This document shows, piece after piece, positions 21,473 through 30,392 of a DNA stretch of 30,631 nt (position 1 is its first letter; each line of letters starts with the position of its first letter). Position numbers and translations under genes: made by a program. The stretch comes from a virus. The stretch lies in the IMG/VR virus record IMGVR_UViG_3300009093_000034, positions 1 to 30,631 of that record; one strand, 5' to 3'. The notes beneath the pieces are model-generated. The model was not told where the DNA came from. It saw only the letters and a program-made list of their open reading frames with translations, and searched no databases.

Positions 21473-22011
21473 TACTTTACCTCGTAAAAGATCTTGGTTC
21501 CAGCTGGGTACTCAACACCTTCAAAGAAGGTAGATTGATTTAGTACCAAAAAAGGCAACTGAGGTTCGTGCTTAGGGTACGGAGCCACAGGAGAACCAAC
21601 GACATTGGCGAGATTTTCACTAGCAGATTGAACGTCTTCCAAGTTCTTCTTGGGATAGACAACGTTTAATTGAGCACTACGATCATTCACCCCATCTCCA
21701 CCAAACTCTGGTCCTAACTTTGCACCTTCAGGTGTGAAGAGGAAGTAATTGGCCCAAAATGAAAGGTCAGCTGCGTCAGAGTCAAAAGCTGTCTGTAGAC
21801 CCTTGAGAGCACTCACGAGAGGGTTCTCTTGGATCATACCAAACTCTTCGCTGGTAGTTCCTTGTGAGGAATTTTGAGGAGATCCTGGGATCTGAGATGG
21901 TCGATCTACAAAGTATCGCTGAGCAAACTCATCAACGTTCTCTCCTGTAGGAGGAAGAAAGTTGACGTCTTTCAGGAACTCAGCGATCGTAGATTCCTTA
22001 AAGCCTTTCAT
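21472..22011 (-). CDS. Hypothetical protein
   Basis: 179 aa. A polar, Ser/Gln/Gly-rich segment near 38-56 (SQIPGSPQNSSQGTTSEE) links an N-terminal helix region to a domain with several aromatic residues (LSFWANYFLFTPEG). The C-terminus is beta-like (VEYPAGTKIFYEV). No Cys and no known motif. It overlaps both neighbours by TAATG, making a tight three-gene operon (22011-23693, this gene, 20984-21472). Confidence 0.75.
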   Translation of the reverse strand: MKGFKESTIAEFLKDVNFLPPTGENVDEFAQRYFVDRPSQIPGSPQNSSQGTTSEEFGMIQENPLVSALKGLQTAFDSDAADLSFWANYFLFTPEGAKLGPEFGGDGVNDRSAQLNVVYPKKNLEDVQSASENLANVVGSPVAPYPKHEPQLPFLVLNQSTFFEGVEYPAGTKIFYEVK

Positions 22012-23693
22012 TACTTGTAAGCTCCAGCCTTTCCTAAGAGTCCTTGACCTTCGAACTCGTCCTTGTATGCTTTGAAAGCATACTGATCAAGTTCCTTGAG
22101 CCAAGCGTCATCGATCTCGTAGTACATGTTGTCAAGGCGATCTAACCATTTGTGATCTAGCTCACCTTCTTTGGCGTCTTCTTCTAATTGACCTTCTTCG
22201 TTACAATCATAGCAAGGAGCAGTTCCTTCACCGTGGCATTCTTCACAGTCGACTTGATCGATGTTTCCATCTTCGTCCTCGTCTTCAACTGTTCCTTCAC
22301 CATCGCATTCTGGACACTTTACATATCTTTTGTTGTGGCAAGAGTAACATTCTTCATGAACACCTTGAACAACATCAGCAATACTTTCAAAAATAGTGAA
22401 AACCTTTACTCCAGTATCGGTCTTAAAGATACCTTCTCTAGAAGCTAGTTCTAACATCTGGTCTTGAAGATCTGTGTCATAAGAGTTGTTGCTAAAGTAT
22501 CCTCGTTTCTCAGAGGCATACCCGTTATCAAGATACTGCATGATTCCACCATTACCGATCTGGTAGTTAGCAGCTCCAAAGAACACAACAATTGCTGCTT
22601 CATCTCCATAGGTATGTAGAATGTACTCAATGAACTCTCCCCAACTCTTGTCTTTAGCAGGACCGTTGTCTTGCCAATCTTCGTAACAAATGTCCATAAT
22701 GGTCTGGAGGAAGCCGTGTTCTTCACCACTCTTTGGGGTTGCCTTTAATTTAGAGACAAGGTTTTGGGTGATCTTTTCTTGAAGTCTTTTATCGTTCATG
22801 TTTGTTCCTTTTGTGGATTCTTCAAAATCTTCATTCAAAAACTCATTAGGATTCACTGCATTCAAGAAGTCTTGAGCCAAAAGAGTTGCTGCAGAATGAA
22901 CAATGCTTGCGTGGTCTTTTGCTAAGTGCCATCTTTTAGCATCTTCAATGAAAGAAACAATGGTTTCTAAGCTCACCATATTGTTGATCCAATTTCTAGT
23001 TTTGTCTTGGTTGTAGTCATCTTCTGAAAGAAGTTCAACTGCGTCATCAATAACTTCATCGACAATTTCATCATGCTCATGTCTAAATGAAGATTCTTCA
23101 AATCTAGTCTCGTGTTCAAAATCTTCAATCATGTCTTTTGGATCATTTAAGACTTCAAGAACTACTTCAGATAGCTCATCTGCATCAGACATGTTAGTAA
23201 TTCTTTCTACATAACTTTTAACAAAACGATCCAAACTCTTAGAGTTTTTAACCTTAGTTTTGTTTTTTATGATCATCTTGAAAACTTTTTTAACGTTTCT
23301 AATGATGTCGGCCATGTAGTTATTCCACTCATCATTCCATTCATTTACATCGTCTTCGTCTTGCTCAAAGTCCATGTTTTCAATTTTTCTTTCATGAGAC
23401 TTAAAGGCTTCGAGATCATCCTTAAGGGACTCGATAGCTATTTTGTCCAAGTTAGGTTGCATTCCGCCTCTAGCCTGCATAAGGTTCACCATAGAGTCGG
23501 AACCAAGTGATTCTGAAAGGAGATTAGAAAGAAGAGAATCTAAGGTGTTAAGTGCTTCATGAGCCTTGAAACCATGTACAAACATAGCCTTTCTTTGCGC
23601 GTCAGCTTTCTTCTTTGAACGGAATTTGTGTGGATGTTTTGGAGGATTATCTCCAACATTTTCGTAGCCACCGTCAACTTTCTCTGTGCCCAT
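22011..23693 (-). CDS. Multidomain protein with DnaJ-type CxxC zinc repeats, DMP19/DUF4375-like segment
   Basis: 560 aa, in three parts. Residues 1-295 are helical and extremely charged, with acidic runs (DFEQDEDDVNEWNDEW) and a basic N-terminus. A middle segment near 320-400 (GEFIEYILHTYGDEAAIV, then IGNGGIMQYLDNGY) resembles the DUF4375/DMP19 family, whose hallmark is NGGxxQY. Residues about 447-497 carry four CxxC pairs (CYSC, CPEC, CEEC, CYDC), two followed by Gly-Glu-Gly, as in the zinc domain of DnaJ. No J-domain (HPD) is seen. The function is unknown; DNA mimicry or a folding role are guesses. AAGGAG lies 10 bases before the ATG. Confidence 0.75.
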   Translation of the reverse strand: MGTEKVDGGYENVGDNPPKHPHKFRSKKKADAQRKAMFVHGFKAHEALNTLDSLLSNLLSESLGSDSMVNLMQARGGMQPNLDKIAIESLKDDLEAFKSHERKIENMDFEQDEDDVNEWNDEWNNYMADIIRNVKKVFKMIIKNKTKVKNSKSLDRFVKSYVERITNMSDADELSEVVLEVLNDPKDMIEDFEHETRFEESSFRHEHDEIVDEVIDDAVELLSEDDYNQDKTRNWINNMVSLETIVSFIEDAKRWHLAKDHASIVHSAATLLAQDFLNAVNPNEFLNEDFEESTKGTNMNDKRLQEKITQNLVSKLKATPKSGEEHGFLQTIMDICYEDWQDNGPAKDKSWGEFIEYILHTYGDEAAIVVFFGAANYQIGNGGIMQYLDNGYASEKRGYFSNNSYDTDLQDQMLELASREGIFKTDTGVKVFTIFESIADVVQGVHEECYSCHNKRYVKCPECDGEGTVEDEDEDGNIDQVDCEECHGEGTAPCYDCNEEGQLEEDAKEGELDHKWLDRLDNMYYEIDDAWLKELDQYAFKAYKDEFEGQGLLGKAGAYK

Positions 23694-23853: not shown

Positions 23854-26178
23854 ATGCTGATCACCAAAAAAGATGGTTCTAACCAGCCTTTTGATGAGAA
23901 CAAGGTTCTCAAAACCCTCAAGATAAGATCTGAGGGACTATCTGGAGTTAATCAAGATAAAATTTTCAAAGAGTTCACCAAGAACATCGCCGAAGGAATC
24001 TCAACGTCTGACCTAGAGAAGATGCTGATCCTTTCCGCGTCTTCATTGGCTGAAACTCACTTGGATTATGACAAGCTTGCCACTAGACTCTTCCTTCAGA
24101 AGATCTACAAAGAGGTTCTTGGCGGAACAGCTTCAGATGAAGAAAGAGACTCTGCTCACAAGCACGCTTTCATCCATTTCATTGACTCCTCTCCTCTTCT
24201 TGACGATAGAATGAGAAACTGCTTCGACTTGGTCAGACTCTCCAATGCTCTTGATCTTGAACAAGACAAGAGGTTCAACTTCCTTGGTCTCACAAGCATC
24301 TACGAGAAGCTTCTCATTCGTGATGAAAACGGCTTCGTCAAAGAAACTCCACAGATGTTTTTCATGCGCGTCGCTATGGGTCTTTGTCTTGAAGACGTGG
24401 ATGATTTCGTCCTTGATCTTTACGGGATCTACTCTCGTCATGAAGCCATCAGTTCAACCCCAACTCTCTTTGCTTCCGGCTTGAAGAAGGCTCAATTGTC
24501 TTCTTGTGCTGGTGGAGTCGTTACCGATACCACGGAGTCCATCTTCGGAACAGCTGAAGACTCTTTCAATCTTGGTAAGTGGAGCTATGGAATCGGTACC
24601 TCTGTTTCCAAGCTTCGTGCCATCGGAAGCACAGTTAAGTCCACAAGAATCCAATCCAGCGGAATCATCCCATTCCTTCAGATATACAACGCCATCTGTA
24701 ACTCGGTCAATCGAGGAGGTCGTAAGAGAGGAGCCATGTGCTTCTACCTTGAGAACTGGCACTATGAGACTGAGGACTTCATCAAGCTTCGCAGAAACTC
24801 TGGTGATGAGAGAATGAGAACCCACGATCTCAACACCGCTCTTTTCATCTCTGATGAGTTCATGAAGAGAGTTATGAGAGACGAGCAATGGATGCTCATC
24901 GATCCTAAGGAAGCCATTGACAACGGTTACGACCTCACAGAGCTCTCTGGAAGAGCTTTCTCTCAAGCCTACAAAGAACTTGAGAACCTAGCTAAGGCCG
25001 GTAAGATCAAGCTCTTCAAGTTCATCAAGGCTAAGGACCTTTGGAAGCAACAGCTCCTTAGCCTCTTCGAGACCGGACACCCTTGGGTCACGTTCAAGGA
25101 TGCTATGAACGTCAGGAACCCAAACCAGAACTCAGGAAACATCTACTCCAGCAACCTCTGTACAGAGATCGCTCAGAACGTTCTTCCAGATGCCTCGGGA
25201 GCAGGAGAGTATTTCAACTGTTTCTTGGCTTCTGCTAACCTCGGTGAGATGTTTCATCCAGAGACCCAGTTCGATGTTGAGAAACTTACCCACGCTGTTC
25301 GAATCTTGGTACGAGCTTTGGACAATGCAAATGATTTGAACTATTACCCCACAGAAGGTGTAAGAGCCGGTTCACAACGATACCGTTCTATCGGTGTTGG
25401 AGTTATGGGATGGCAAGACCTTCTATTTAAGAACAAGATTCCTTTTGATTCTCCTGAAGCTGTTGATCTTCTTGATCGAGTAGCTGAGGTTTGGAGTTAC
25501 GCTGCAATTGATGCTTCTGCGGCTCTTGCTGTTGAAAGAGGAAGTTACCAGAACTTTGAAGGAAGTCTTTGGAGTCAAGGAATTCTTCCAGTTGACACCT
25601 TGGCCATGCTCTCAGAGTCAAGAGACCTTCCATTGACCGTAGAGTCAACCACTCGTCTGGATTGGGACGTCTTGAGAGAGAAGGTAAAGAAGGGCATGAG
25701 AAACGGTTACGTTATGTCTCCTGCTCCTAACGCTTCCACCGCTCTTTACTTGGGAGTTTATCCAGCTACTGAGGCTCAATATGCCAACATGTACTCCAAG
25801 GAGAACATGCTCGGTAAGTTCTCTATCATCAACGAGTATCTTGTAGATGATCTAGCTAAACTAGAGGGAATTGACGTTGAAGAAGTAGTTCAGAAGATCA
25901 AGAACTCTCGAGGAGATCTAGCAAAAGCTGGAATCAAGGACGAGAAGATCCTTGAGCTTTACAGAAATGCTTTTGAGGTAGATCCATTGGCACAGGTCGA
26001 ACAAGCCAAGGTGCTTGCTAAGTGGATCGACCAATCACACTCCAGGAACATCTTCCTGGACACAAACAGTGGCAAGGTCTTGAATGATGTGTATCTTCAA
26101 GGTTGGTTGGGAGGTGTTAAGACCTTCTACTACTTGAGATCCAAGGCCGCCACATCAGCAGAGAACTCGACAGAATAA
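23854..26178 (+). CDS. nrdA: Ribonucleoside-diphosphate reductase, large (alpha) subunit, class I
   Basis: 774 aa from the ATG at 23854. The frame stays open upstream to 23686 but that part crosses the divergent promoter gap and the usual ATP-cone start is MLITKKDGSNQPF. Active-site residues are present: Cys218 (LSSCAG) and Cys456 (FNCFLAS) as the redox pair, Asn434-x-Cys436-x-Glu438 in SSNLCTEI, and the radical-relay Tyr pair in TFYYLRS. The protein reduces ribonucleotides to deoxyribonucleotides. It ends RSKAATSAENSTE without the C-terminal Cys pair that normally re-reduces the active site. AGGAG lies 12 bases before the ATG. Glutaredoxin and nrdB follow in one operon. Confidence 0.95.
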   Translation: MLITKKDGSNQPFDENKVLKTLKIRSEGLSGVNQDKIFKEFTKNIAEGISTSDLEKMLILSASSLAETHLDYDKLATRLFLQKIYKEVLGGTASDEERDSAHKHAFIHFIDSSPLLDDRMRNCFDLVRLSNALDLEQDKRFNFLGLTSIYEKLLIRDENGFVKETPQMFFMRVAMGLCLEDVDDFVLDLYGIYSRHEAISSTPTLFASGLKKAQLSSCAGGVVTDTTESIFGTAEDSFNLGKWSYGIGTSVSKLRAIGSTVKSTRIQSSGIIPFLQIYNAICNSVNRGGRKRGAMCFYLENWHYETEDFIKLRRNSGDERMRTHDLNTALFISDEFMKRVMRDEQWMLIDPKEAIDNGYDLTELSGRAFSQAYKELENLAKAGKIKLFKFIKAKDLWKQQLLSLFETGHPWVTFKDAMNVRNPNQNSGNIYSSNLCTEIAQNVLPDASGAGEYFNCFLASANLGEMFHPETQFDVEKLTHAVRILVRALDNANDLNYYPTEGVRAGSQRYRSIGVGVMGWQDLLFKNKIPFDSPEAVDLLDRVAEVWSYAAIDASAALAVERGSYQNFEGSLWSQGILPVDTLAMLSESRDLPLTVESTTRLDWDVLREKVKKGMRNGYVMSPAPNASTALYLGVYPATEAQYANMYSKENMLGKFSIINEYLVDDLAKLEGIDVEEVVQKIKNSRGDLAKAGIKDEKILELYRNAFEVDPLAQVEQAKVLAKWIDQSHSRNIFLDTNSGKVLNDVYLQGWLGGVKTFYYLRSKAATSAENSTE

Positions 26179-26200
26179 AGGAAAAGGAAGGAGAAGAGGT

Positions 26201-26494
26201 ATGGTTAAGATCTACACCACCAATAGCTGCGCTGTTTGCAAGCGAGCTAAGACTGATATGCTAGTTAAGGGCATTGCATATGAGGAGCACAACGTCGAAG
26301 ACAACGAACAAGACTTTGACGTGATGATTGAGGCGACTGGAAAAACTGCCGTTCCTCAATTTGACATCGATGGAGAGTGGGTGGTAGGTTACAACTCTTC
26401 GGTCATTGAGAAGGCTTCACGAGATGAAGACGACTTTGAACTTGTTGGAGTAGGTGGACAAGAGTACGCAACTTGCGAATCTTGTGAAGGTTAA
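26201..26494 (+). CDS. Glutaredoxin (NrdH-like) with extra C-terminal CxxC tail
   Basis: 97 aa. The thioredoxin fold is clear: KIYTTNSCAVC with redox Cys10 and Cys13, TAVPQF with the cis-Pro, and a closing helix ending near residue 77. NrdH and Grx proteins are usually about 75-85 aa. Here a Gly-containing tail of about 20 residues follows and ends ATCESCEG, with Cys92 and Cys95. Such a tail is typical of NrdA C-termini, and the adjacent NrdA lacks it. The protein should reduce the phage ribonucleotide reductase. It lies between nrdA and nrdB, with several purine-rich ribosome sites before the ATG and one base between its stop and the nrdB ATG. Confidence 0.9.
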   Translation: MVKIYTTNSCAVCKRAKTDMLVKGIAYEEHNVEDNEQDFDVMIEATGKTAVPQFDIDGEWVVGYNSSVIEKASRDEDDFELVGVGGQEYATCESCEG

Positions 26495-26495
26495 C

Positions 26496-27497
26496 ATGGG
26501 AATTCTAGATATCCGAGATGAGATGGAGAACAAAGAACTCCATCGAAATCCATACCCACAATTTCTCAAACACTTTACCAACGGTGTAGCCAACAACTGG
26601 ACAGTTGCTGAGATCTCTCTTCAAGACGATCAAGAGCAATGGAACGTTCCTGGAAAGTTGACTGATGAAGAGAAGCAACTTGTTCTGAAGAACCTTAAGT
26701 TCTTCGGAGTTTGTGAAGCTCTTACCATGGACAACGTTGCTGTTGCTATCCTTCCTAGAATTCAAGACGGTTACGTGAGAATGGCATTGATTCGCCAAGC
26801 TTATGAAGAAGCTCTTCACTCTCAAACCTTCTTGACCATCGCTGAGTCTCTTTCCATTAAGATCTCCGACATCTATCAAGAGTACAAGGACACGCCTTCT
26901 GTTAAGGCCAAGATTGATTTTGTTAATTATCTGATTGGACAAACAGAGAAAGACGGTTTTGATATCACAACGATTGAAGGTAAGCAAGATCTTCTTCAAG
27001 ACATGATCGGGTTTTTCCAGATCCTTGAAGGAACCTTCTTCTTCACCAACTTTGCTCAATTGTTCTCTCTTCGTCGAAAGAACAAGATGAAAGGACTATC
27101 CAGCTTCATTGACTACATTGCAAGAGACGAATCTGTTCACATTGCTATCGGCCGAGACCTGATCAACATCATCATCAAAGAGTATCCCGAGATCTGGACT
27201 CCATCTTTTAGAGAAAAAATGAGTACATCTTTTGCAACCGCGGTTAGATTAGAAGATGCTTACTTAAACGATACTATTCCAGAGACTCTTCTAGGTCTTA
27301 ATCGAGAATCGTTTAAGGATTACATTCGATTCATTGCCAATCGAAGAATGAAAGGTATTGGTCTAGAAGGTCTTTGGCCTAACATGAAAAATCCTTTCCC
27401 TTGGATGAGTACAGAGAATGATCTCCCTACTGAAACGAACTTCTTCGAGTCTAGACCAAAAGAGTACAAAACTGGCGATGTCAACATGGACTTCTAA
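26496..27497 (+). CDS. nrdB: Ribonucleoside-diphosphate reductase, small (beta) subunit, radical Tyr replaced by Phe
   Basis: 333 aa from the ATG at 26496, which has GAAGG 5 bases upstream; an in-frame ATG at 26454 lies inside the glutaredoxin gene. Six metal ligands are present by alignment to known R2 proteins: Asp45, Glu105, His108, Glu178, Glu212 and His215. The residue four after the first His, Tyr122 in E. coli R2, is Phe112 here (EEALHSQTF). Chlamydial class Ic R2, with a Mn/Fe centre, has Phe at this place but Glu as first ligand, whereas this protein keeps Asp. Tyr324 near the C-terminus fits the radical-transfer Tyr356. Confidence 0.95.
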   Translation: MGILDIRDEMENKELHRNPYPQFLKHFTNGVANNWTVAEISLQDDQEQWNVPGKLTDEEKQLVLKNLKFFGVCEALTMDNVAVAILPRIQDGYVRMALIRQAYEEALHSQTFLTIAESLSIKISDIYQEYKDTPSVKAKIDFVNYLIGQTEKDGFDITTIEGKQDLLQDMIGFFQILEGTFFFTNFAQLFSLRRKNKMKGLSSFIDYIARDESVHIAIGRDLINIIIKEYPEIWTPSFREKMSTSFATAVRLEDAYLNDTIPETLLGLNRESFKDYIRFIANRRMKGIGLEGLWPNMKNPFPWMSTENDLPTETNFFESRPKEYKTGDVNMDF

Positions 27498-28058: not shown

Positions 28059-30278
28059 TTATGGTCTTCGAAGACCCATGGTTTGTAATCTTTTCATGGT
28101 ATCGATCTTGGCTTGTTCTGCCGTCTTTTCAACGATCTTGTCAGGGTCAAAGATCTCGTGCCCCAAGAACTCATACTTTCGTAAGAGCTCACAGTTGGCA
28201 GCTAGAACGTCTGCACCGTCTTTTGCATGGATGCCAATCATGCTGGTCAACCAGTTCTCGTCACCTTCGTAGACCAAGTCGCCGTTCGTGTGGTCGATCT
28301 TCATCGTACCAGTCTTGTGTCCTGTGGCATCTTTTCTCTTAACCATCTGAAGACTTCTCATGTTGTTCTTGGCGTGGATGTTGTGTCCCATCTTGAACCG
28401 ACCCGTCTCAACTAGACCGACAAAACCAATGTAAGGCTCAATGGTCTTGTCTACTGAGAGAAACTCAACCTCAAGACCGCGACGAAGAAGACTTTGTACA
28501 GCGGGTTCAGATTGGAACCGGTCGAAAGAGACTTTGCTGATGGTCAACATTCCCTCATCGATCAAGTCTGTGATGAAACATCTGATGGCGTCCAAGTTGA
28601 TACGTCCACCAGCAGGCGTGATCATGATCAACATGTCGTTGATGTACACGTTCTCGTACAGATCTCCACCTGAAACCTCTGCTCCAGCTCGAATGGTCTT
28701 CATCTGTTTCTCAACATGAGAGACTCCAATAGCTGCAACGTCTCCAGAGATGGATTGGTCAACAGAAACCACACGAGGAAGGTGAGGGTTTCTCCAAAAT
28801 CGATATCTATCCAAACTTCTGATGAAGAAGATGTCTTTCACTTGATTCCAGATCAACTTCTCAGGAGCATCCATAGAAGGAGCGGTCAAGTGTTTGTAGA
28901 AGGATCTAAGTTTTGGAACGAACACCCTATCCACCACACTTCCGTCGTAGAAGATCTTATCAGATGAACCAGCTGGGATACCAGCTTGGTCCTTTAGAGC
29001 CTCAAAGAGGTTTTCTTCAAAGGTAGCTTGATAGTCCTTTCTAGCTCCGTCCTTCTCTTGAAGGATCTTAGGAACCTTGATGACGTCAGGCATGTACTCA
29101 GGAACTGAGGCTCTGTCAATAACGATAGGTGGTTTACCTTTACCTCCGATGAACACGAAGAAGGCCTTGTCGTCTTTTACTTCTCCCTTTTCATCAAAGG
29201 TGTCTTCAGGAAAGTCTCTTTTGTTGAAGTGCCAACGAGAACCTCGGACGATGTAGTTCTCAGGGTTCTTAGGAGCATCATTGACGATCCAATCATCGAT
29301 TGGATTCTCAAGGGAGTTAGGAGAGGAGTCTAGAACGAACCTACCAAAGTAGTTGCTCTTCATACGAGACTCAATACGAGATCTGAGCTTGGTGAAGAAC
29401 TTGAAGACGAAGTCGTCAGACTTTCCGGCATCAGAGAAGAAGCTCAACTCGGTCATGTTTCCAACGGCGATAGTCTGTCCCAAGAGTCCGTTAGGGTTTG
29501 AGATCAACTTGAAGTTGGCACCGCCAGAGAACTGAAGAGCAGAGGTTGGAACTGCCGTTGTCCAGTAGATCTTATCGATGTTTCCCATTCTTGAGAAGTC
29601 TCGGTCCCTTTCAAGCATGGCATCTTTTGAGTGAACCTTCTCAAAGAACTCTGAGGCTTGGAGCATGTTGAGCATTGGTTCAAGAAGCAACTCAGAAGAC
29701 TTCTTCAAAGAGGTTGCTGCGTAAACTTGGGTGTAAACGGTAGCTGGAGAATGGCCTAGGTATCTCCAAGGAGCTCTCATCATGGAGAAGTTCATCCCCA
29801 AGAAGAGGTTGACTAGAACTACCATGAAGGACTTACCGAAACCAATGTAAGGGTTCAGAACCAAAGTTCTGTAAGGCTTGAGAGGATCAAGGAACTCAAT
29901 GAAAGCTTTTCTAACCCAAGGATAGATCGTGTTAGCAGTCTCTCCTAGGTATCGTGATGTCAAGAACTCTTCAGGCGTTGGTGGTTTATCTCTGAAGTTA
30001 ACCCTCCAGCTGTTGGAGAGAAGATCCTGCTTCTCAGCGTTGGACATGTGAGGGTCTGTCAAGATGAAATCAAGAGCAGCTTTGATCTGAGGAAGGCTGA
30101 TGCCTTTTACCTCTGGTCGTTCAAGTAGCGATGTGTCTCCAGCAAGGAGATCCTTGAGCATGAAGTCTAGTTCTTTCAAGACACTAGGATCAATGGAAGA
30201 CAGAGGGGCGGAAGGAAGTGCATCCAATAAAGTAGGATGCGGATTGACCAAATTTATTGGTTCTCGTTCTACATTCAT
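28059..30278 (-). CDS. terL: Terminase large subunit
   Basis: 739 aa from the ATG at 30278; a GTG six bases earlier (30284) is in frame, and neither has a clear ribosome site. The ATPase part has a Walker A-like GFGKS (146-150), a Walker B candidate GNMTELSFFSDAG near 273-285, and a coupling motif LDSSPN near 316. The nuclease part has VVSVDQS (Asp507), KVSFDRFQS (Asp586) and HAKDGADVLAA (Asp687, Asp690), the RNase H-like layout of TerL. It pumps phage DNA into the capsid and cuts it. It is longer and more divergent than most TerL proteins. No small subunit is seen next to it. Confidence 0.85.
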   Translation of the reverse strand: MNVEREPINLVNPHPTLLDALPSAPLSSIDPSVLKELDFMLKDLLAGDTSLLERPEVKGISLPQIKAALDFILTDPHMSNAEKQDLLSNSWRVNFRDKPPTPEEFLTSRYLGETANTIYPWVRKAFIEFLDPLKPYRTLVLNPYIGFGKSFMVVLVNLFLGMNFSMMRAPWRYLGHSPATVYTQVYAATSLKKSSELLLEPMLNMLQASEFFEKVHSKDAMLERDRDFSRMGNIDKIYWTTAVPTSALQFSGGANFKLISNPNGLLGQTIAVGNMTELSFFSDAGKSDDFVFKFFTKLRSRIESRMKSNYFGRFVLDSSPNSLENPIDDWIVNDAPKNPENYIVRGSRWHFNKRDFPEDTFDEKGEVKDDKAFFVFIGGKGKPPIVIDRASVPEYMPDVIKVPKILQEKDGARKDYQATFEENLFEALKDQAGIPAGSSDKIFYDGSVVDRVFVPKLRSFYKHLTAPSMDAPEKLIWNQVKDIFFIRSLDRYRFWRNPHLPRVVSVDQSISGDVAAIGVSHVEKQMKTIRAGAEVSGGDLYENVYINDMLIMITPAGGRINLDAIRCFITDLIDEGMLTISKVSFDRFQSEPAVQSLLRRGLEVEFLSVDKTIEPYIGFVGLVETGRFKMGHNIHAKNNMRSLQMVKRKDATGHKTGTMKIDHTNGDLVYEGDENWLTSMIGIHAKDGADVLAANCELLRKYEFLGHEIFDPDKIVEKTAEQAKIDTMKRLQTMGLRRP

Positions 30279-30392
30279 AATCACTTAGTAGCGCCACATT
30301 GAATAGTTATTTATTCAATAAAAAAATTCAATCTGTTTACTAGCTCCAAGCTGTACACTAATTATTTTACCCCATTTTAGAGGTTAAAAACC
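30279..30392. promoter_or_regulatory. AT-rich divergent gap with an inverted repeat
   Basis: Lies between terL (-) and the last gene (+). ATTGAATA / TATTCAAT (30298-30305 and 30312-30319, loop GTTATT) is followed by seven A and a third ATTCAAT (30326-30332). Promoters for both directions are expected here, but I find neither of the two motif families. TACACT at about 30354 could be a -10 for the rightward gene. Confidence 0.4.

Follow-up and report, generated by a model that had tools for sequence, protein, structure and literature searches.

How is a class I ribonucleotide reductase (RNR) kept turning over when its large subunit, NrdA, ends without redox cysteines and the gene next to it encodes a glutaredoxin (Grx) that ends with a pair of them? 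A pair of cysteines at the C-terminus of class I RNR reduces the disulfide in the active site and is itself reduced by Grx or thioredoxin (PMC6187632; PMC5704485); all class I NrdA are stated to keep this pair (PMC6187632). The question is raised by a phage locus in a stretch of 30,631 nucleotides, hereafter the window (positions 1 to 30,631 of IMG/VR record IMGVR_UViG_3300009093_000034, whose whole length is a 305,833 bp contig). The relevant features are the following:

23854..26178, + strand: nrdA, class I RNR large subunit of the ATP-cone type (NrdAz-like), 774 aa (Pfam, Cys positions, tree)
26128..26175, + strand: C-terminal stretch of NrdA, YYLRSKAATSAENSTE, from the Tyr759-Tyr760 dyad to the final residue (alignment with P0003, P0004 and P0005)
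26179..26200, + strand: spacer of 22 bases, with an AAGGAG ribosome-binding site 7 bases ahead of the Grx ATG (sequence; upstream regions of 25 window genes)
26201..26494, + strand: Grx, 97 aa, active site CAVC, with a putative C-terminal redox arm (PF00462, E=4e-12; Foldseek)
26435..26491, + strand: the arm, Grx residues 79-97, predicted to be disordered and ending CESCEG, with Cys92 and Cys95 (AlphaFold2; alignment with fusion tails)
26496..27497, + strand: nrdB, radical-generating subunit, 333 aa, class Ic-like (PF00268; structure matches; motif EEALHSQTF at 104)

The nrdA frame opens with an ATG at 23854 and closes with a TAA at 26176-26178. Pfam revealed the RNR barrel, the all-alpha domain and the ATP-cone in the encoded protein (PF02867, 3e-150; PF00317, 4e-14; PF03477, 6e-7), and the nearest solved structure is 5im3, which we take to be the NrdA of P. 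aeruginosa. Alignment with relatives showed that the active-site pair Cys218/Cys456, the thiyl Cys436, Asn434, Glu438 and the radical-path dyad Tyr759-Tyr760 are all conserved. The only cysteines of the protein are those at positions 123, 178, 218, 282, 296, 436 and 456, none lying past Cys456. An earlier note made from the sequence had reported that the last ~60 residues are devoid of Cys, which proved correct and extends to the last 318. Three relatives (P0003, P0004 and P0005) run on from about the dyad-containing stretch into a CxxCQ tail, and the window NrdA terminates after SAENSTE. A tail hidden in another frame ahead of Grx was ruled out because the NrdA stop and the Grx ATG are only 22 bases apart. 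Because its own chain does not end in a redox Cys pair, the window NrdA is a variant of class I NrdA (NrdAz-like) and not a standard member.

The gene that follows encodes a dithiol glutaredoxin fold with a CxxC active site (C10-A-V-C13) and a cis-Pro loop (V51-P52), as found with Pfam, AlphaFold2 and Foldseek, the top Foldseek matches being E. coli Grx3 and other Grx/NrdH proteins. This Grx is probably recharged by glutathione. As the same note had described, the protein continues beyond the usual fold to an ATCESCEG ending, the tail proper reading C92-E-S-C95-E-G. AlphaFold2 gave pLDDT values above 90 for the core blocks, below 50 for residues 79-88 and a mean of 58 for the last block, such that residues 79-97 are predicted to form a disordered arm. 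The likeness of this extension to an NrdA tail, also claimed in that note, was borne out by alignment with the tails of NrdA-Grx fusions: the arm aligns position by position with them, the final C-E-G included, and 29 residues separate the GY turn from the first tail Cys in the window arm versus 17-27 in the fusions. The ribosome-binding site in the spacer is similar to those preceding several other window genes among the 25 upstream regions compared.

We then asked how unusual this pair of genes is. Loci were collected from IMG/VR, GTDB genomes and GenBank phages with NrdA, Grx and NrdB queries, and the NrdA C-termini of the 285 loci from the first searches were made non-redundant. A Cys pair was present in 79 unfused and 59 Grx-fused NrdA, and the window phage was the one case of an NrdA without a tail. 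The NrdB-anchored scan added 38 NrdA (38/38 tailed), and five further diverse phage NrdA were all tailed, as were ~20 bacterial class I NrdA. Left out of the bacterial set by judgement were some dozen class II-like proteins that lack a tail of the class I type and one ORF truncated at a contig end. Conversely, a CxxC tail was found on 5 of 84 separate Grx ORF rows, and all five were copies of the window sequence. The absence of the tail from NrdA together with its presence on the adjacent Grx is thus real and unique in the loci searched. Chance is an unlikely cause of the pattern, because every other closed class I NrdA examined carried the tail and a tailed separate Grx occurred only in the window sequence; a chance extension of Grx was likewise rejected, this being the sole tailed sequence among the 84 rows. 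A tail-less NrdA of the same clade accompanied by a Grx without CxxC, which would have spoken against the proposal of the earlier note, was looked for and not found in these loci; nor did the survey of homologues yield a related phage with the same split, a sharing that the note had thought worth checking. In a published survey, the strict CXXC was present in 1737 of 2022 class I sequences, and departures from it therefore exist (PMC9531940), but the literature we found mentions no compensating tail carried by Grx.

A Cys pair placed behind a Grx domain has a counterpart in phages. The cyanophage S-TIM5, phage C48C1, S-CBWM1 and dozens of IMG/VR contigs encode in one chain the order NrdA-linker-Grx-arm-CxxC(E-G/A); in S-TIM5, the YYLR motif of NrdA is followed by the linker, the Grx domain and the ending NECAACEG, and the C48C1 and S-CBWM1 fusions end in DECRACEG and DCVACEA, respectively. 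Most of the NrdA recovered by the Grx scan were of this fused type. Going by the order of these domains, NrdA is very probably already served in many phages by a Cys pair tethered to it on the arm that follows Grx, and the same order strongly suggests that a CxxC tail behind Grx is able to serve NrdA. The window NrdA and Grx are collinear with the fusions end to end, that is, in body, linker, Grx, arm and tail, and share with them the Grx and NrdA as one unit and, after the NrdA body and Grx, an arm with terminal C-x-x-C-E-G. However, the fusions are one polypeptide, whereas the window phage has two genes, with a stop at 26176 and a Grx that has its own ribosome-binding site and ATG. In addition, the fused NrdA are short (~640-680 aa), lack the ATP-cone that the window NrdA has and are only 25-30% identical to it, and in the tree the window body falls outside the fused clades.

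The fusions are frequent in IMG/VR, especially with short NrdA (L001, L002, L170 and many of L089-L284); the literature found gives only a count of grx::nrdA virus fusions, two. The S-CBWM1 fusion (L170:2307-5279) has an annotated intein within its NrdA part, and in Pseudoalteromonas phage J2-1 (L172:4998-7514) the Grx is placed on the N-terminus of an NrdA with a normal CEGGGCKI tail.

We consider it likely that the window encodes a class I RNR whose redox shuttle resides on a separate protein, the Grx arm reducing Cys218-Cys456 of NrdA in trans. Turnover on ribonucleotides would leave the Cys218-Cys456 disulfide in an NrdA that has no C-terminal pair of its own to reduce it. Glutathione would recharge Grx at Cys10/Cys13, from which electrons would pass, within or between molecules, to Cys92/Cys95 of the arm; Grx would dock on NrdA, and its flexible arm would enter the active site and reduce Cys218-Cys456. 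Docking, the electron path and the action in trans are what we infer from the arrangement. In a linked NrdA-Grx AlphaFold model (pTM 0.82), the NrdA body was confident, and the arm, with pLDDT values of 26-29, was not placed. In yeast Rnr1, the tail reportedly serves the neighbouring subunit, which would ease such a separation.

A partial precedent for delivery in trans may be seen by analogy in the class II NrdJa/NrdJb, where, as in the window phage, the C-terminal redox element is encoded by a separate gene; unlike the window Grx, however, NrdJb is a zinc-finger cysteine-rich domain and not a redoxin (PMC5704485). Against action in trans, when the isolated cysteine-rich domain of the S. nassauensis class II NrdJd was supplied in trans, the one reconstitution cited, the enzyme showed no activity with TCEP (PMC5704485), a reductant that reportedly acts solely through the C-terminal cysteines. 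A class I RNR with a dedicated Grx as its reductant is also known from the Grx::NrdB fusion of Facklamia ignava and Francisella, in which the Grx is on NrdB, unlike in the window phage (PMC6187632).

Three other explanations were weighed. The one that survives best, although we hold it to be unlikely, is that the two ORFs yield a single NrdA-Grx-tail chain working in cis as in S-TIM5, either through a programmed +1 frameshift or because a one-base error of assembly or sequencing split them. In its favour, the open frame of Grx extends back to 26138, in the +1 frame and overlapping the end of nrdA, and a shift at the stop would give the stop-free ...STE-KGKGRRRG-MVKIYTTNSC..., collinear with the fused relatives. 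However, the position where a Grx canonically starts is marked precisely by a strong ribosome-binding site and an ATG, the nrdA stop shows no evident slippery sequence, and in the tree the window NrdA lies outside the fused clades. Moreover, the sequence is identical in a second IMG/VR contig (11,778 bp, zero mismatches or indels), which may belong to the same phage population and hence is not fully independent. Quite improbable, in our judgement, is that the arm is unused on NrdA. The active-site pair would then be reduced with small thiols (directly), the core of Grx or, in a mixed dimer, a host NrdA tail as the electron donor, and CESC would have another role or none. It is true that the link between arm and NrdA comes from sequence and that, even when the tail domain is absent, the active-site cysteines of an RNR can be reduced by DTT (PMC5704485, PMC6459318), but the arm matches the fused NrdA tails at each position including the final C-E-G, and in the loci searched the sole tailed separate Grx adjoins the sole tail-less NrdA. 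That NrdA is a decaying pseudo-enzyme with a truncated tail, in a phage dependent on host dNTPs, would suit a single lineage without close relatives but is very hard to credit when every catalytic and radical-path residue is retained, no internal stops occur, the ATP-cone is kept and an intact nrdB is adjacent.

Returning to the action of the Grx arm in trans, the origin of the arm may be approached from the trees. The window NrdA body, on a long branch, groups with the ATP-cone CxxCQ NrdA at 95/98, the fused clades being separate at 100/99, and is 40-45% identical to the former versus 25-30% to fused NrdA. With the NrdAz-type proteins (5im3 and phage relatives ending CESCQ or CEACQ; body ~38-45% identical) it has in common the catalytic residues and the ATP-cone, but in all those examined the tail is on NrdA. 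A simple fission of a known fused NrdA-Grx was rejected, the window body being in another clade. The ending of the arm has two kinds of likeness: CESC is common in the CxxCQ clade, and C-E-G, typical of the fused lineages, closes 57 of 59 fused versus 2 of 80 unfused NrdA. As the body is of the CxxCQ clade but the CxxCEG ending is of the fused-lineage type, capture or recombination appears as possible as a move of the tail from the window NrdA itself. A grx gene may have been inserted ahead of the tail codons of an NrdAz gene, an NrdAz gene may have recombined with a fused one, or the likeness may be convergent. The earlier note had proposed that the swinging arm moved to Grx and acts there in trans; of this, the complementary loss and gain stands, the action in trans is plausible and gains strength from the comparison with the fusions, and the move from this NrdA is one of several possible routes. 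We find it fairly likely that the locus encodes a tail-less class I RNR whose obligatory arm is supplied in trans by a dedicated Grx with a copied or captured NrdA tail.

In the Grx tree, the fused domains fall into at least two groups, and therefore phages may have placed the tail behind Grx on more than one occasion. The window Grx clusters with S-TIM5-type and bacterial GrxC sequences in a mixed group whose order the few alignment columns do not resolve. In the NrdA tree, the fused label requires several changes, and in one relative of the fused phages (L131:3177-5219) NrdA itself carries the tail (CIMCEG) and the gene immediately downstream encodes a Grx without one, such that the tail and Grx modules look exchangeable. 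If the trans reading is true, then together with the two fused Grx lineages phages would have placed the RNR tail behind Grx independently up to three times. Grx-fused NrdA were already known; what is new, among the loci searched, is an NrdA and a tailed Grx as two adjacent genes, and the pair draws attention to the phage fusions as well. A natural NrdA with intact chemistry and the arm on its reductant would offer a direct test of whether the tail must be tethered, of the way in which redoxins locate NrdA and of a possible relay through tail, Grx and active site, and would be a natural two-component system for studies of RNR turnover.

The nrdB gene starts one base past the end of Grx, and its product has Phe112 in the position of the radical Tyr of class Ia enzymes. 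The nearest solved chains are 6y2n, 1syy, 4d8f and 2ani, and the motifs EEALHSQTF, EG.FF and RDES.H align with 1syy, a Chlamydia-type R2; this Phe and the metal-ligand motifs, read from the sequence, point to a class Ic-like class I enzyme. The consensus with two aligned NrdB relatives (phage Illi-2 and Acinetobacter) has Tyr in the place of Phe112. The 305,833-bp genome holds one NrdA and one Grx; alternative reductants were sought in it and none was clear, no thioredoxin lying above the cut-off and one weak thioredoxin-like match lying under it. Scans with single proteins found no close relative except the second contig of the same phage. On the reverse strand of the window, a 560-aa protein (22011-23693) has no J domain match and carries near its C-terminus a weak DnaJ-like CxxCxGxG zinc-type repeat, under the Pfam cut-off. 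The large terminase (28059-30284, - strand) has no Pfam match and is very divergent, with ~20-24% identity to known phage terminases, and the phage therefore reads as an isolated lineage.
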